Part shown: positions 23,966-28,197 of the stretch, in pieces | How the letters are laid out: each line of letters starts with the position of its first letter | How positions within the stretch are numbered: the first letter of the stretch is position 1 | Source of the DNA: Prolixibacteraceae bacterium | Lineage (GTDB): Bacteria > Bacteroidota > Bacteroidia > Bacteroidales > Prolixibacteraceae | Direction of reading: 5' to 3' | Assembly (NCBI GenBank): GCA_947475715.1 | Contig: CANJNY010000048.1 | Span: 1 to 32,430 of the forward strand | DNA: 32,430 bases | Position numbers and translations under genes: made by a program | The notes under the pieces: model-generated | The model's database searches: none | Seen by the model: the letters and a program-made list of their open reading frames with translations, nothing else | What the model was told of the DNA's origin: nothing

Positions 23966-25168
23966 TTAGGCTTCCACCGCCACTCCGTTTCTTTTGAGGA
24001 TCGGAATCCTGGTAAAGAAAAAGGCATAGATCGTTACCATAATTATGCAAACCATTGGAATCACATACGAGATCTGTACGCCATGATTATCGGCAATCAT
24101 CCCCTGAATTGGAGGGAATACTGAACCACCTATAAGCGCAAAATTTAATAAGGCAGAACCTTTGCCGGTGAAAGAACCAATCTCCTCGATTGCCAGGCTG
24201 AAGACGGTTGGAAACATAATCGAAAGGAATAATCCTAATCCCGCCATCAGGAATTCATTATATCCACTGTTAAAAGTAATGATCATCGAAAATATCACCA
24301 CCATTCCTACGCCAAAAATTCCAAGGAGTTTATGGGCATTGACATATTTCAAAAGAACAACGCCTAAAATGCCCATAACCGCTGTAAGGATATAGTATAG
24401 TGTGAGGTAGTCTGCCGCTTTTGCATCTGTAAAACCCAGGACCGATTTGAGGTAAGGGATAAAAAATCCGCAGGTACATGACTCAGCTCCCATGTAGAAA
24501 AACATGGCGAACACTCCGAAGAAGAGGTGTCGGTGTGAATACCCTTCGCTAAGAATCCCTTTGAGCGTAAATAAATCGTCCTTCTCAGGCTTCATTGCCG
24601 GAAGATTCGACAACCCCATTAAAAGTGCGATCAACAACAGGATCCCGGCAAGTAAGAGGTATGGAAAATGAAACCGTATTTCTCCAATTTGATTGTATAT
24701 CAATACAGTAGCAACGGCAGGTGTGACCGCATAACCGATTCGCGAAAAAACCTGTACGAAATTTATCCGCTGATGTGCTCCCTCAGGATCACCAAGCATA
24801 GAGGCAAACGGGTTGGCCGCTACATTGATAATGGTTAATCCGGTTGAGATAACAAAAATTGCAAACAGTACGATCGGGTAGGAGTCATAAAGTTTTGCAG
24901 GCCAGAAAAGCGCTGAACCCAGTGCGCAGGTTACTAATGCTACAAGCAGACTAACCTTATACCCAAATCGGTGAATCATCCAGGCAATCGGAATGGGAAA
25001 AATAATGTAGGTGAGGTAAAAAGTGAACTGAATCATTGTCGCCTGGGTGTAATTCAGTTTAAAATGGGTAATGAGTGACGGCAACAGGATGTCGTTCATG
25101 CAGAAGAGGGCTCCAACCATGAAAAACATCAGGGACAATAGCATCAAAGGCTTATACTGGTGTTTCAT
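23966..25168 (-). CDS. FucP-like MFS sugar:proton symporter
   Basis: A 400-residue major facilitator protein of the FHS type (fucose-galactose-glucose:H+ symporters). Typical features: NDILLPSLITHFKLNYTQA early in helix 1 and loop 1, IQFTFYLTYIIF, MIHRFGYKVSLLVALV, and RINFVQVFSRIGYAVTP, the counterpart of the FucP LNxxQxFxxxG segment. About 12 hydrophobic helices can be counted; inner membrane. It is the first gene of the seven-gene run and has the only fully formed promoter in the window. Its 5'UTR (25169-25259) is a near duplicate of the leader upstream of 27169, including a 27-codon upstream ORF ending in an ATGA overlap with this start codon. The sugar is unknown; FHS members move fucose, galactose, glucose, or N-acetylglucosamine. 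Confidence 0.9.
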   Translation of the reverse strand: MKHQYKPLMLLSLMFFMVGALFCMNDILLPSLITHFKLNYTQATMIQFTFYLTYIIFPIPIAWMIHRFGYKVSLLVALVTCALGSALFWPAKLYDSYPIVLFAIFVISTGLTIINVAANPFASMLGDPEGAHQRINFVQVFSRIGYAVTPAVATVLIYNQIGEIRFHFPYLLLAGILLLIALLMGLSNLPAMKPEKDDLFTLKGILSEGYSHRHLFFGVFAMFFYMGAESCTCGFFIPYLKSVLGFTDAKAADYLTLYYILTAVMGILGVVLLKYVNAHKLLGIFGVGMVVIFSMIITFNSGYNEFLMAGLGLFLSIMFPTVFSLAIEEIGSFTGKGSALLNFALIGGSVFPPIQGMIADNHGVQISYVIPMVCIIMVTIYAFFFTRIPILKRNGVAVEA

Positions 25169-25259
25169 CTGTAAATAATTTGTTTTTTAAAGGTCAGATA
25201 GAATAGCCATGTGGATATTCTCATTTCGGTTGGTGATTTCTCAACCATGGCTGTTTCAT
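25163..25259 (-). repeat. Duplicated 97-nt leader, copy A (symporter 5'UTR)
   Basis: Read on the - strand, this segment runs from an ATGAAA just after the -7 box to the ATGAAA that begins the symporter gene. It matches 27078-27174 (+) at 87 of 97 positions with no gaps; similarity stops upstream of the first ATGAAA and after the start codon. It can fold with AGCCATG (25252-25246) against CATGGCT (25211-25205), enclosing GGTTG/CAACC (25246-25242 / 25232-25228). The uORF start codon lies in the outer stem. Confidence 0.85.
25165..25248 (-). CDS. 27-codon upstream ORF in the symporter leader
   Basis: ATG at 25248-25246 opens a 27-residue frame ending in TGA at 25167-25165, which overlaps the symporter ATG by the 4-base ATGA. 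The peptide contains ISTWLFYLTFKKQI, hydrophobic then basic. The second leader (27089-27172) keeps the frame, length and stop overlap, with 22 of 27 residues identical. Seven substitutions fall on codon positions 1, 2 and 3 about equally, so protein-level selection is not shown; the frame may be a by-product of a conserved RNA. A shorter frame, ATG at 25259, encodes 12 residues in this copy only. Confidence 0.35.
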   Translation of the reverse strand: MVEKSPTEMRISTWLFYLTFKKQIIYR

Positions 25260-25260
25260 G

Positions 25261-25292
25261 CAAAGATAGTTTGATTGTGAATTATTGTCAAA
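25261..25292 (-). promoter_or_regulatory. Promoter of the symporter-led operon
   Basis: On the - strand, TTTG at 25292-25289 and TATCTTTG at 25268-25261 are separated by exactly 20 bases, matching the Bacteroidota TTTG-N19-21-TAnnTTTG promoter. Transcription should begin about 5-8 bases after the -7 box, so the mRNA leader nearly coincides with the duplicated 97-nt unit. Confidence 0.75.
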
Positions 25293-25485
25293 AATACATT
25301 TGCAGCAAATCAAATACTTCTCTAATATTCGATAAAGCACATTAAATTTTAACTATCTGTTCGTTTAGAACATTTAAATCATTTGGTTACGGGTTTAAAT
25401 TAGTGCGATTGTTAAAAATCGATTTTAATCGAAAGGTTAGGATTAATCCCATTACAAAGATGTGCAACCTTGTAATATTTCAACG

Positions 25486-25620
25486 GTAGAGACGCACAGC
25501 TTTACGTTTCTACAATTCTAATCCGTGCGTCTCTATAATTCTAATCCGTGCGTCTCTTCAATTCCCATGGTTTCGTCTCTACAATTCCAATCCGGAAATC
25601 TATGAATTCCCATGCGGATT
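25486..25620. repeat. Degenerate 23-bp tandem repeats led by a GTAGAGACG hairpin
   Basis: After a hairpin-like GTAGAGACG...CGTTTCTAC (25486-25513) come units of 23 bases: 25505-25527 and 25528-25550 are nearly identical (CGTxTCTAxAATTCTAATCCGTG), 25551-25573 and 25574-25597 are diverged, and 25598-25620 is weaker still. Units abut with no spacers, so this is not CRISPR. The left unit overlaps the right arm of the hairpin, suggesting that the array grew from that palindromic repeat. Confidence 0.75.
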
Positions 25621-25652
25621 TCTCTTTTTACACAGATAACCAATTTATCCCG

Positions 25653-26378
25653 CTATTTTGTTTTCAGCCAATTCATCAGGTCGTGAAACATCTCATCGTT
25701 AATGGTATGTCCTGCAGGGTATTCGTTATAAGTAGGATTTAAGTTTAACATTTTTAGAAACGCGCCGGCTTCACGTGCATAATGGATCGGTAATACCCCG
25801 TCGTTTACCCCATGCGAGATAAAAATACTCAGGTGTTGTAGCTTTTCGTTCGGTGCAATAAAGGGTCTTACTTCGTCAAGAATCCTCCCGCTCATTGCGG
25901 CAATTCCCTTGATCTTATCCGGATTTGTAAGGGCAACGACATACGACATAATCGCCCCCTGACTGAAACCGCATAGATAAACCTCATTCTCATCAATTGA
26001 ATATTTGTCTTTTAAATAGCTGATAAACTGAAGGATGATATTTTTGCTCTCCGCTTCCTGCTCTTCACTGAACACTGGTTTCCCCTTGGAGAAATCGACC
26101 TGATACCAGGCATAGCTATCGCGGGCGACAGCATGGGGTGCCCGGGCTGAAATCACAAGAAATTTATCGGGTAACTGATCCGCAAATGAAAAAAGGTCCT
26201 TCTCATTACTACCAATCCCATGCAGCAGAATAATAACCGGAGGATGTTCCGAGTGAATTTTAGGTTCTCTTGTTAGGTAAAAAAGGGGTGATTCATTGTT
26301 TTTTGAATTGACCATGCCCAGGATTGTATTCATTGCGGAAAGAAATAAAATAGTTAAAATTAAACGTCTCATTATCAA
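25653..26378 (-). CDS. Secreted alpha/beta-hydrolase esterase (phospholipase/carboxylesterase type)
   Basis: A 241-residue serine esterase of the YpfH/carboxylesterase-phospholipase group. A signal-like N terminus (MRRLILTILFLSAMNTILG; ATG at 26372 may be the true start rather than 26378) suggests export. The fold motifs are complete: LLHGIGSNEKD with the oxyanion HG (52-54), nucleophile Ser139 in CGFSQGA, Asp193 in SHGVNDGVLP, and His224 in PAGHTI. The substrate is a short carboxylic or acyl ester; de-esterification of decorated glycans would suit the neighbourhood but is inference. It has its own -7-like element (26436-26429) and is divergent from the small Cys-motif gene. Confidence 0.88.
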   Translation of the reverse strand: MIMRRLILTILFLSAMNTILGMVNSKNNESPLFYLTREPKIHSEHPPVIILLHGIGSNEKDLFSFADQLPDKFLVISARAPHAVARDSYAWYQVDFSKGKPVFSEEQEAESKNIILQFISYLKDKYSIDENEVYLCGFSQGAIMSYVVALTNPDKIKGIAAMSGRILDEVRPFIAPNEKLQHLSIFISHGVNDGVLPIHYAREAGAFLKMLNLNPTYNEYPAGHTINDEMFHDLMNWLKTK

Positions 26379-26428
26379 ATCTGTTTTGTACTCTAATTGA
26401 TTTATAACAGTGAATCATTGAGATAGTT

Positions 26429-26436
26429 CAAAATTA
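26429..26436 (-). promoter_or_regulatory. -7-like promoter element of the esterase gene (TAATTTTG)
   Basis: Read on the - strand, TAATTTTG fits TAnnTTTG and lies about 50 bases before the esterase start. No clear TTTG -33 box is visible upstream. Confidence 0.4.
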
Positions 26437-26536
26437 GCCTAAGGTGAACACTTTGGATAAGAGGTTTAGGACTATATGTAGCACTTTCCGGAAATTCTAA
26501 AATAGTTAACTTTTTAAAAGATACCCTAAAGTGTAT

Positions 26537-26544
26537 TATATTTG
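26537..26544 (+). promoter_or_regulatory. -7 promoter element abutting a start codon (TATATTTG)
   Basis: TATATTTG matches the -7 consensus and ends 4 bases before ATG 26549. The expected transcription start would fall on or next to the A of that ATG, so the mRNA would be leaderless. The upstream GTG at 26531 in the same frame cannot be the start if this promoter is used. Confidence 0.5.
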
Positions 26545-26548
26545 CACG

Positions 26549-26929
26549 ATGAAATTCAAAACGGCAATAGCTTTTAGTCTGATGTTATTAATACTCATTC
26601 CAATTTTTGGAAAGAGCTGGATTCTCATATCCTTTAAAATCAATCAGGAGTCTATTGCCAAAAACCTTTGTGTTCAGAGAAATATTAAAAATAATAGTTG
26701 TCATGGCTGCTGCCAGTTGAAGAAGTGCCTCACTGAAAAGGACAAACAAGAGCAAAAACAACTTCCCCGGGGCTCAAAGGAAAAAGGCTCAGCTCCTTCA
26801 GATTATTTGCAAATAGAAACTGGTTGTAATTCCAGTTATGCATCTGTTCAAAAATGGGCGGACTCCAATTCCAATAGTTCATTACCCTCATCATTTCCCA
26901 ACGGCATATTTCGCCCACCCCAATCTTAG
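26549..26929 (+). CDS. Small exported Cys-motif protein, putative metal-linked
   Basis: A 126-residue protein (start chosen at ATG 26549 because the upstream GTG overlaps a promoter box). It has one N-terminal hydrophobic segment (residues 5-29) serving as signal or anchor, then KINQESIAKNLC and a cysteine cluster: Cys41, Cys51, Cys54, Cys55 and Cys60 in NSCHGCCQLKKCL. This matches a group of small Bacteroidota proteins with the pattern NxCxGKCxLKKxL found beside TonB-dependent receptors and copper-handling genes. The C-terminal half is polar and low-complexity. Next downstream are a Met-rich outer-membrane protein and an MbnP-like lipoprotein, so a periplasmic metal-related role is inferred. 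No biochemical function is known to me. Confidence 0.75.
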   Translation: MKFKTAIAFSLMLLILIPIFGKSWILISFKINQESIAKNLCVQRNIKNNSCHGCCQLKKCLTEKDKQEQKQLPRGSKEKGSAPSDYLQIETGCNSSYASVQKWADSNSNSSLPSSFPNGIFRPPQS

Positions 26930-27041
26930 TTAAATTTGATTTATTGATTCGGATTGCTCTATAAATCAGCTAATTAAAAATATTAGTTTTCCTTATCCAA
27001 ACCTTTTTTACCCTTCAAAGAGGAGGTGAAATCTGTGTCTG

Positions 27042-27049
27042 TATATTTG
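27042..27049 (+). promoter_or_regulatory. -7-like promoter element of the Met-rich gene (TATATTTG)
   Basis: TATATTTG fits TAnnTTTG and would place the transcript start about 25 bases before the duplicated leader. No good -33 box is visible. Confidence 0.4.
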
Positions 27050-27077
27050 ATTAATTCCAATATTTAAATTTTAAATA

Positions 27078-27174
27078 ATGAAATAACTATGGTTGAGAAA
27101 TCACAAACTGAAATGAAAATATCCACATGGCTATTTCATCTGCCCTTTAAAAAACAAATTAGTTACAGATGAAA
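27078..27174 (+). repeat. Duplicated 97-nt leader, copy B (Met-rich gene 5'UTR)
   Basis: This is the + strand partner of 25163-25259, 87 of 97 bases identical without gaps, ending with the ATGAAA that starts the Met-rich gene. The outer and inner stems of copy A are weaker here: some changes keep pairing as G-U, others remove a pair. Together with copy A it forms an inverted pair enclosing the 23-bp repeats, the esterase gene and the Cys-motif gene. Confidence 0.85.
27089..27172 (+). CDS. 27-codon upstream ORF in the Met-rich gene leader
   Basis: ATG 27089 opens a 27-residue frame with ISTWLFHLPFKKQI, ending in TGA at 27170-27172 that overlaps the ATG at 27169 as ATGA. It corresponds residue for residue to the frame upstream of the symporter (22 of 27 identical). 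It could couple translation of the main gene or act as a leader peptide; expression is unproven. Confidence 0.35.
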   Translation: MVEKSQTEMKISTWLFHLPFKKQISYR

Positions 27175-28197
27175 AGTTTTCAAGTTCTTTTCCTGATGAT
27201 GTTTTGCTATGCGGTTAATTCGTTTAGTCAAACTGAAACAATGCATTGCTGTAATATGAATTCATCCACTATTCTGAACGGGCACCAAACTCAGGCAGGA
27301 ATGTGGATGATCTCATATAGCTATATGAATTCGTTTATGCAGAACAATTACACCGGGACAACCAAGGTAAGCGACCAGACTATTTTTGAAAAGTATCTTA
27401 TGTCGCCTGTAAATATGCATATGGATATGCACATGCTTACAGGTATGTATGGCTTTTCGAATAAACTCTCCCTGATGGTCATGGTAGACTATAATTATAT
27501 GAATATGAGGATGAAAATGGTTGCAGGTGCGATGAATATGGGCATGGGGCCATCACCAATGTCAATGAAAAGTACCAGCCAAGGGTTTGGTGACACGAAG
27601 ATTAGCGGCTTGTATAAATTGTATTCCGCTAATGGTCATTCACTTTCTGCAGATGTTGGCTTTAGCCTTCCCACAGGTTCAATTCATAAAACTGAAAAGG
27701 TTGATATTTCACATTATGGTGATAAGGAGGTTTATATGATGCAGACGGGGTCGGGGACGGTTAATTGGCTACCCGGCATCTCCTATATTTATCAGCAAAC
27801 CAAATATTCCCTGGGTGCAGAGGCAACCGCTTTAATCCATCCCTATTTTAACCGACTGGGGTATAAATTAGGGAATGAGTATTCTATAAACGCCTGGTAT
27901 ACCTATGAATGGTTAAAAAATGCGACGGTTACCCTGCGTCTAAATTACACTGCTTCAGGAAAGATTCAGGGTTATGACCCCGATATTTCGGCAGTAACAG
28001 AACCGGCGGCTAACCCTCAGAATTATGGCGGGTCATTTTTAAAGGGATATCTCGGATTGGCTTATTATTTTACCGATGGATCTTTGAAGAACACTAAAAT
28101 AAGTGCAGAATTTGGCCTTCCACTCTATCAATATTTCAATGGAATTCAGACTGCTGCAAATTTTAACTCCATGGTGTCATGGGCATTAATTTTTTAA
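27169..28197 (+). CDS. Met-rich outer-membrane transporter-like beta-barrel protein
   Basis: A 342-residue protein with a signal peptide (MKSFQVLFLMMFCYAVNSFSQ) and the alternating pattern of an outer-membrane barrel, ending in aromatic/hydrophobic residues (MVSWALIF). A striking Met/His-rich region (residues 78-133: 17 Met in 56 residues, with NMHMDMHML, NYMNMRMKM and NMGMGPSPM) and an N-terminal MHCCNM suggest Cu(I) binding, as in CopB-type proteins. It resembles the transporter-like proteins often annotated in Bacteroidota metal-resistance loci. It starts inside the duplicated leader and is followed after 11 bases by an MbnP-like lipoprotein gene. Copper as ligand is inferred from composition and context. 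Confidence 0.8.
   Translation: MKSFQVLFLMMFCYAVNSFSQTETMHCCNMNSSTILNGHQTQAGMWMISYSYMNSFMQNNYTGTTKVSDQTIFEKYLMSPVNMHMDMHMLTGMYGFSNKLSLMVMVDYNYMNMRMKMVAGAMNMGMGPSPMSMKSTSQGFGDTKISGLYKLYSANGHSLSADVGFSLPTGSIHKTEKVDISHYGDKEVYMMQTGSGTVNWLPGISYIYQQTKYSLGAEATALIHPYFNRLGYKLGNEYSINAWYTYEWLKNATVTLRLNYTASGKIQGYDPDISAVTEPAANPQNYGGSFLKGYLGLAYYFTDGSLKNTKISAEFGLPLYQYFNGIQTAANFNSMVSWALIF

Follow-up and report, generated by a model that had tools for sequence, protein, structure and literature searches.

A 97-nt element precedes two divergent genes

We analyzed a 32,430-nt stretch of DNA from a Prolixibacteraceae bacterium (contig CANJNY010000048.1 of assembly GCA_947475715.1), here called the window, in which two divergent genes are each directly preceded by a copy of the same 97-nt element. 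Copy A (25163..25259, (-) strand) lies directly 5′ of an MFS sugar symporter gene (23966..25168, (-) strand), an open reading frame (ORF) that is fucP/gluP-like by Pfam and NCBIfam comparison, with scores below the NCBIfam cut-offs. Copy B (27078..27174, (+) strand) lies directly 5′ of a gene for a Met-rich, putative secreted or outer-membrane protein (27169..28197, (+) strand), an ORF to which no Pfam or NCBIfam family was matched; the gene after it is MbnP according to Pfam, below the NCBIfam cut-off. The length of each copy includes an ATGAAA hexamer at either end. The 3′ hexamer is the start of the gene itself, at 25163-25168 (-) for the symporter and at 27169-27174 (+) for the Met-rich protein. 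The 5′ hexamer is the left target repeat; in copy A (25254..25259, (-)) an upstream ORF of 12 codons begins with it, and in copy B (27078..27083, (+)) it reads ATG AAA TAA (Met-Lys-stop).

An initial annotation of the window described the copies as an inverted pair with sharp ends, and our alignment bears this out: 87 of the 97 positions are identical without indels, and identity falls to 10/30 and 11/30 nt in the flanks, so that the likeness stops at both ends. It also held that the unit begins right after a perfect -7 box, and that the duplicated unit is therefore the 5′ untranslated region (5′ UTR) itself; comparison with symporter orthologues overturns both statements. The -7 promoter consensus is TAnnTTTG. 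A box of this type (TATTTTTG, 25289..25296, (-)) lies further upstream of the symporter, at a place where 11 of 12 orthologues, the window's own included, have one, whereas the box used by the annotation (TATCTTTG, 25261..25268, (-)) belongs to this genome alone and is found in none of the 11 other orthologues examined. Because the upstream box is conserved and the TATCTTTG box is not, the element is an insert that interrupts an existing symporter 5′ UTR.

Between the symporter and a hydrolase gene, another repeat (GAGACGCAC / GTGCGTCTC type) is clustered at 25487-25630, and similar text also occurs upstream of the symporter in a relative (G010, L141).

The element belongs to a family dispersed over Bacteroidota

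A blastn search of its own genome with copy B returns itself, copy A (the best match, E 2.1e-31) and ten further matches. We then used 36 copies to build a covariance model (alignment A3, model R1; genus-trained), which has 27 matches in the window's genome (E ≤ 0.1). Across the family Prolixibacteraceae the model matches 95 of 140 genomes in 16 of 23 genera (E ≤ 1e-4), with at most 29 candidates scored per genome, so that these counts are lower bounds. Within the genus, blastn finds the element in 15 of 18 genomes and has no match in the small genomes G004, G007 and G016. The wider spread is patchy: of 395 genomes sampled across the phylum, the genus-trained model matches 10, the window's own among them (E ≤ 1e-6), and an exact degenerate 37-base pattern of the element's 3′ third finds at least 119 stretches in a public collection. 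The organisms named for the 80 pattern matches listed, which we take to be Bacteroidota throughout, include Algoriphagus, Cyclobacterium, Marinilabilia, Geofilum, Sunxiuqinia, Parapedobacter and Sphingobacterium. The usual length is 85-100 nt between the two ATGs, most commonly 91.

Homologues confined to this locus, the case that the initial annotation had set against its own proposal, are thus not what is found. The searches that it had called for, by blastn and by covariance model with the downstream genes listed, instead yield a dispersed family with unlike genes behind its copies, among them lepA, fabD, purE and aspartokinase (judged by eye). In several genomes, AAA ATPase genes with an RQTGK/RRVGKS-type P-loop stand directly behind copies (L004, L080, L283); perhaps these are just a common family. 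A 20-nt insertion (ATTAGCTTCGCTGATCTTCG) before ATTCC is the same in copies from different genomes (L033:1072-1189, L023:1500-1616 and L236:50-166), and this subfamily is a marker of a lineage that spread.

The annotation knew of no described leader with this sequence, and neither do the sources that we searched. Rfam 15 has no match at gathering score in the window or in the loci of 14 relatives, and no description of the element was found in the titles and abstract openings of openly licensed papers, supplements aside. Other miniature inverted-repeat transposable elements (MITEs) of Bacteroidota are the subject of PMC4596501 and PMC9769881. The exact pattern has no copies in viral contigs, blastn finds no element match in phages, and plasmids give nothing beyond matches of 26-36 bases at E 0.8 (best 10 of 12 records).

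Empty orthologous sites reveal precise insertion

We compared the upstream regions of orthologues for the symporter, the outer-membrane gene, lepA and purE. The symporter site is empty in seven of the 11 other genomes (G004, G006, G007, G010, G011, G012 and G016), where the shared flank runs straight into the start codon; three more carry other inserts of about 60 nt (G002, G005 and G014), and G013 has diverged. At the outer-membrane gene, two of three orthologues are empty (G010 and G014) and G012 is too diverged to judge. The lepA site is filled in G015 and looks empty in 11 of the 14 relatives shown, the remainder being a decayed element in G006 (43 bits), another insert in G005 and too little sequence in G014. 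Among the purE sequences listed, G010 has a short stretch resembling the element's 3′ end.

The borders of the insertion are exact. Cutting a filled site from its 5′ ATGAAA up to its 3′ ATG gives the empty arrangement, and ATGAAA is present once in empty sites and twice in filled ones. In G062, a relative of the same family, four 95-nt copies are identical within unrelated flanks, and their identity begins and ends at ATGAAA; tandem copies in G061 and G067 have one ATGAAA common to both neighbors. These identical copies and shared hexamers fix the borders without any alignment choices.

The proposal of a 'small mobile regulatory cassette' is consequently divided by the evidence. A mobile cassette is strongly supported by orthologous sites that lack the element, by identical copies whose flanks are unrelated and by tandems sharing ATGAAA. 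A shared regulon does not hold up, as the downstream genes are unlike one another; nor does the idea that sugar uptake and copper handling are jointly controlled after transcription, since G010 and G014 have both window genes, arranged divergently as here, but lack this element. A passive local duplication might be suspected from copy B matching copy A better than anything else in the genome, but it is refuted by a family dispersed over many lineages and by empty orthologues at both sites, and we assign it practically no weight.

Two further arrangements bear on the history of these sites. In G061 (L379, contig C79), two tandem elements and a further 19 nt repeating part of the 3′ end stand where G062 has one element, which suggests that element arrays grow and shrink. 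The inserts of about 60 nt before the symporter start score weakly with the model (G014, L142, E 0.012; G002, L144, E 0.067; G005, L147, E 0.15) and are possibly old copies, that is, repeated hits on one start codon; the insert in G002, 68 nt long, does not recur as a dispersed sequence within the genus.

Insertion occurs at ATGAAA, frequently at start codons

We next quantified the target in two collections: 73 model matches from genus and family loci (78 minus three that are antisense to a better match and two weak ones), and the 119 phylum-wide loci, whose 3′ ATGAA is fixed by the pattern used to select them. Among the 73 model matches, ATGAA is present at the 5′ end in 59 and at the 3′ ATG in 67, and an ORF of more than 60 codons begins at the 3′ ATG in 50. 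For 73 of 106 copies in the phylum-wide loci, the ORF that starts at the 3′ ATGAA either has at least 80 codons or continues past the edge of the locus. Ordinary occurrences of ATGAA in these loci number 250 in start-like positions, 444 between genes and 2523 within them; the share of copies at ORF starts (73/106) thus exceeds that of non-coding ATGAA sites (250/694). At the sixth target base, which the pattern leaves free, A has a frequency of 0.93 in 88 copies compared to 0.55 in 267 ordinary starts with ATGAA. Upstream of the 5′ ATGAA, the flank looks like that of an ordinary start, with A at -12 in 0.68 of 75 copies and 0.58 of 267 starts.

When the flanks are joined across the element, an ORF is extended upstream by at least 40 codons in 8 of 113 copies, which indicates that insertions inside genes are rare or removed. 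With so few extended ORFs, splicing or ribosome hopping is not needed to account for the copies.

Two stems covary, and one holds the start codon

The element has two stems, P1 and P2, which we named by hand before counting covariation. In copy B, the arms of P1 are 27082-27091 and 27126-27135 (span 27082..27135, (+); family covariation), and P2 pairs CATCTG at 27137-27142 with CAGATG at 27166-27171 ((+); covariation and RNA fold). In copy A, both stems are supported by covariation and by the RNA fold: P1 has arms 25246-25255 and 25202-25211 (span 25202..25255, (-)), and P2 has arms 25195-25200 and 25166-25171 (span 25166..25200, (-)). In each of the two RNA folds computed, the start codon is part of P2.

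Covariation exceeds shuffled controls both in the genus (0.233 versus 0.084 ± 0.011; 36-row MAFFT alignment) and across the phylum (0.360 versus 0.108 ± 0.007, with 290 double-change cells in 107 distinct rows). In the phylum-wide alignment, each row was placed by fit to the model, and for most rows the CAT, G, C and ATG of P2 were dictated by the sampling pattern; 63 and 33 double changes occur in the two pairs of P2 that it did not constrain. P2 consists of CAT-NN-G paired with C-NN-ATG, and in the set chosen by blastn the CAT is kept in 30 of 36 copies and the ATG in all 36. Alternatively, the internal CAT is able to pair with the 5′ ATG. Phylum-wide, 1338 of 1576 paired cells are Watson-Crick, while G.A and A.G cells number 37 and 36 in neighboring columns. 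Tandem G.A mismatches are stable on the sense strand, while the C.T mismatches of the opposite strand are not, and for this reason the folded strand is probably the sense strand, as DNA or RNA. The covarying structure is compatible with single-stranded DNA as well as with RNA.

A stem that sequesters the start codon raises the question of a cis-regulatory leader RNA, a riboregulator spread by duplication and kept for control of the genes behind it. Covariation of both stems, the position of the start codon inside P2 and the enrichment of copies at ORF starts are what such a leader would produce. We nonetheless consider it quite improbable, as the downstream genes have no evident common function (by eye), relatives keep the genes without the leader, two of the four identical G062 copies do not precede an ORF, wobble pairs are few, and Rfam holds no match at gathering score.

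Candidates for the mobilizing enzyme

One candidate source of mobility is a Y1 transposase of the kind associated with repetitive extragenic palindromes (REPs), the REP-associated tyrosine transposase (RAYT, or TnpA-REP). Such an enzyme could have multiplied the element as a REP-type palindrome, for example within the Bacteroidetes subclass 2.6, beside whose genes 'atypical secondary structures' are reported in PMC6006769. The element is palindromic, dispersed and mostly intergenic, and 4 of 30 Y1 loci (L084, L088, L095 and L097) hold a copy within about 1.5 kb versus about 0.3 expected from average density (P 0.0002, or 0.003 with copy counts doubled); in L095 the copy is at the Y1 gene's own start codon. 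This excess may arise because such loci are rich in non-coding DNA. Many Y1 genes, the one in L095 included, have other palindromes beside them (by eye), and no Y1 gene has copies on both sides, there being one copy each in the 4 of 30 Y1 loci and in 1 of 20 weak-hit stretches (E < 1e-3). Y1 counts do not track copy number (rho 0.13, 49 genomes), and G134 has 18 copies without a Y1 match (E ≤ 1e-10). The stretches around nine genes with subclass 2.6-like motifs (L300-L308) contain no model match better than E 0.28, the genes there having a different repeat, and no GT[AG]G (or CGTC) tag is present at the hairpin foot in alignments A3 and A5. Overall, we judge a RAYT origin unlikely. The L300-L308 genes themselves are RAYT-like (motifs NH[IL]H and, in most, YIH[QN]NP), and several are flanked by CCCCTCGTTTGCAACGAGGGG or GTGCGGATTTGCAATCCGC palindromes, which are candidates for the 'atypical' REPs of subclass 2.6.

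We also considered satellites moved by IS110-family recombinases of the bridge-RNA type. Genomes with more element copies tend to have more IS110 genes (rho 0.67 within the window's genus and 0.50 when all 49 genomes, from three genera, are taken, with copy counts as lower bounds), though genome size and mobile-element load may confound this correlation. Seven of the 49 genomes have at least 20 copies each and no IS110 match (E ≤ 1e-10). Across 20 IS110 stretches there is one confident copy, about 5 kb from the gene, with none beside a gene, and the IS110 flanks listed neither resemble the element nor share its ends. IS110 mobilization is accordingly very improbable.

A third possibility is descent from a single-strand transposon, IS200/IS605-like or other, with an autonomous parent that none of the sampled genomes contains. 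Such an origin fits the lack of terminal inverted repeats, the two hairpins, and a short fixed target at one end with the same motif at the other; moreover, a double-stranded circle of so short a DNA is unlikely. No parent with these ends is found among 121 pattern copies, of which 30 have no scored 5′ partner nearby and none has a distant partner in its locus. Nor is a replication-strand bias seen: the 34 copies in G041 (one complete genome, its origin taken from a coarse skew map) are split 17 to 17, which may argue against lagging-strand insertion as in IS608. We regard a single-strand transposon parent as possible, though not as the expected outcome. Among the proteins recurring near copies, nothing transposase-like is evident in the 25 clusters listed; the largest occurs in 10 of 119 loci at varied distances and includes a response-regulator-like protein.

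Discussion

The element is dispersed, inserts precisely, has a fixed target and contains covarying stems. We conclude that the window's two units are probably copies of a small non-autonomous element of Bacteroidota with an ATGAAA target and two covarying stems, presumably moved in trans, and that the pair records two landings rather than a regulon. The element inserts at the hexamer ATGAAA, leaving one ATGAAA at each end. When the site is a start codon followed by a lysine codon, the protein is unchanged and an upstream mini-ORF now begins at the old start. P1 and P2 form in one of the strands, most likely the sense one, and the internal (TTC)CAT can pair with the ATG at either end. In the mechanism that we propose, movement may proceed as a folded, single-stranded nucleic acid recognized by an enzyme supplied in trans, with the internal CAT perhaps serving as a guide for both end and target, by analogy with the guide sequences of IS200/IS605.

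Several observations weigh against this conclusion. No mobilizing enzyme was identified among Y1, IS110, neighbor proteins or autonomous copies, and the copies in G041 are split evenly with respect to replication. Of eight G062 copies fetched (from 16 matches), four do not precede an ORF, and the start-codon preference may reflect only the target plus selection. Single-sequence folds are weak (z from -0.46 to -1.92), RNAalifold predicts no pairs, and wobble counts leave the strand unsettled (G.T 46 versus A.C 27 phylum-wide, 8 versus 15 in the genus set).

A bolder version, which we put forward tentatively and hold to be doubtful, is that these copies represent a widespread class of element that integrates at the start of translation. 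Here, a 90-nt folded nucleic acid would find ATGAAA through an internal anti-start TTCCAT, the protein would stay unaltered, the old start would become a mini-ORF, and the enzyme would be unlike the known transposases of small elements.

For the host gene, the consequences of a landing are expected to lie in initiation. C occupies position -3 in 62 of the 73 model matches because that base pairs in P2, whereas A at -3 favors initiation in this phylum according to PMC6847099. A landed copy would therefore be expected to cause altered, probably weaker, initiation rather than a shared response to a signal. If our conclusion is correct, the element enters the 5′ UTRs of even housekeeping genes (lepA, fabD, purE) with the protein untouched, adds hairpins and an upstream ORF to their mRNAs, and constitutes a widespread, overlooked source of translation variation in Bacteroidota. 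Filled sites with empty orthologues are natural pairs for comparing expression. A biochemical question follows as well: what kind of enzyme could move an element of 90 nt that has no terminal inverted repeats, and by what means would it recognize ATGAAA?

Comparison with known systems

REPs, their mosaic assemblies (BIMEs) and their RAYTs, including subclass 2.6 (PMC6006769), provide one precedent: short, dispersed, palindromic, non-coding sequences, thought to be moved in trans, with many copies per genome. In contrast, the element inserts at start codons, is bounded by ATGAAA on either side and has two stems that differ from each other, without a GT[AG]G foot, and it is not found as a pair flanking a RAYT gene (a REPtron). 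The TAACTGA repeats of Beggiatoaceae, Cyanobacteria and some Bacteroidetes are likewise dispersed just upstream of start codons without a common gene function, but are tandem heptamers of unrelated sequence (PMC4679880).

MITEs share its short, non-coding and non-autonomous character and the short direct repeats (target duplication) at both ends; the element differs in having no terminal inverted repeats, its ends being ATGAAA...ATGAAA in direct orientation. Non-autonomous elements derived from IS200/IS605, of the PATE type, resemble it in lacking terminal inverted repeats, in their subterminal hairpins, in insertion next to a short fixed target (here ATGAA(A)), in a target-like right end and in possible guide pairing. 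They differ from it in that no cognate TnpA was found for the element, that no strand bias is seen among its copies in G041, and that the target is a translation-start hexamer. We class it as a small mobile element, non-autonomous, whose target is unusual and for which no mobilizer was found.

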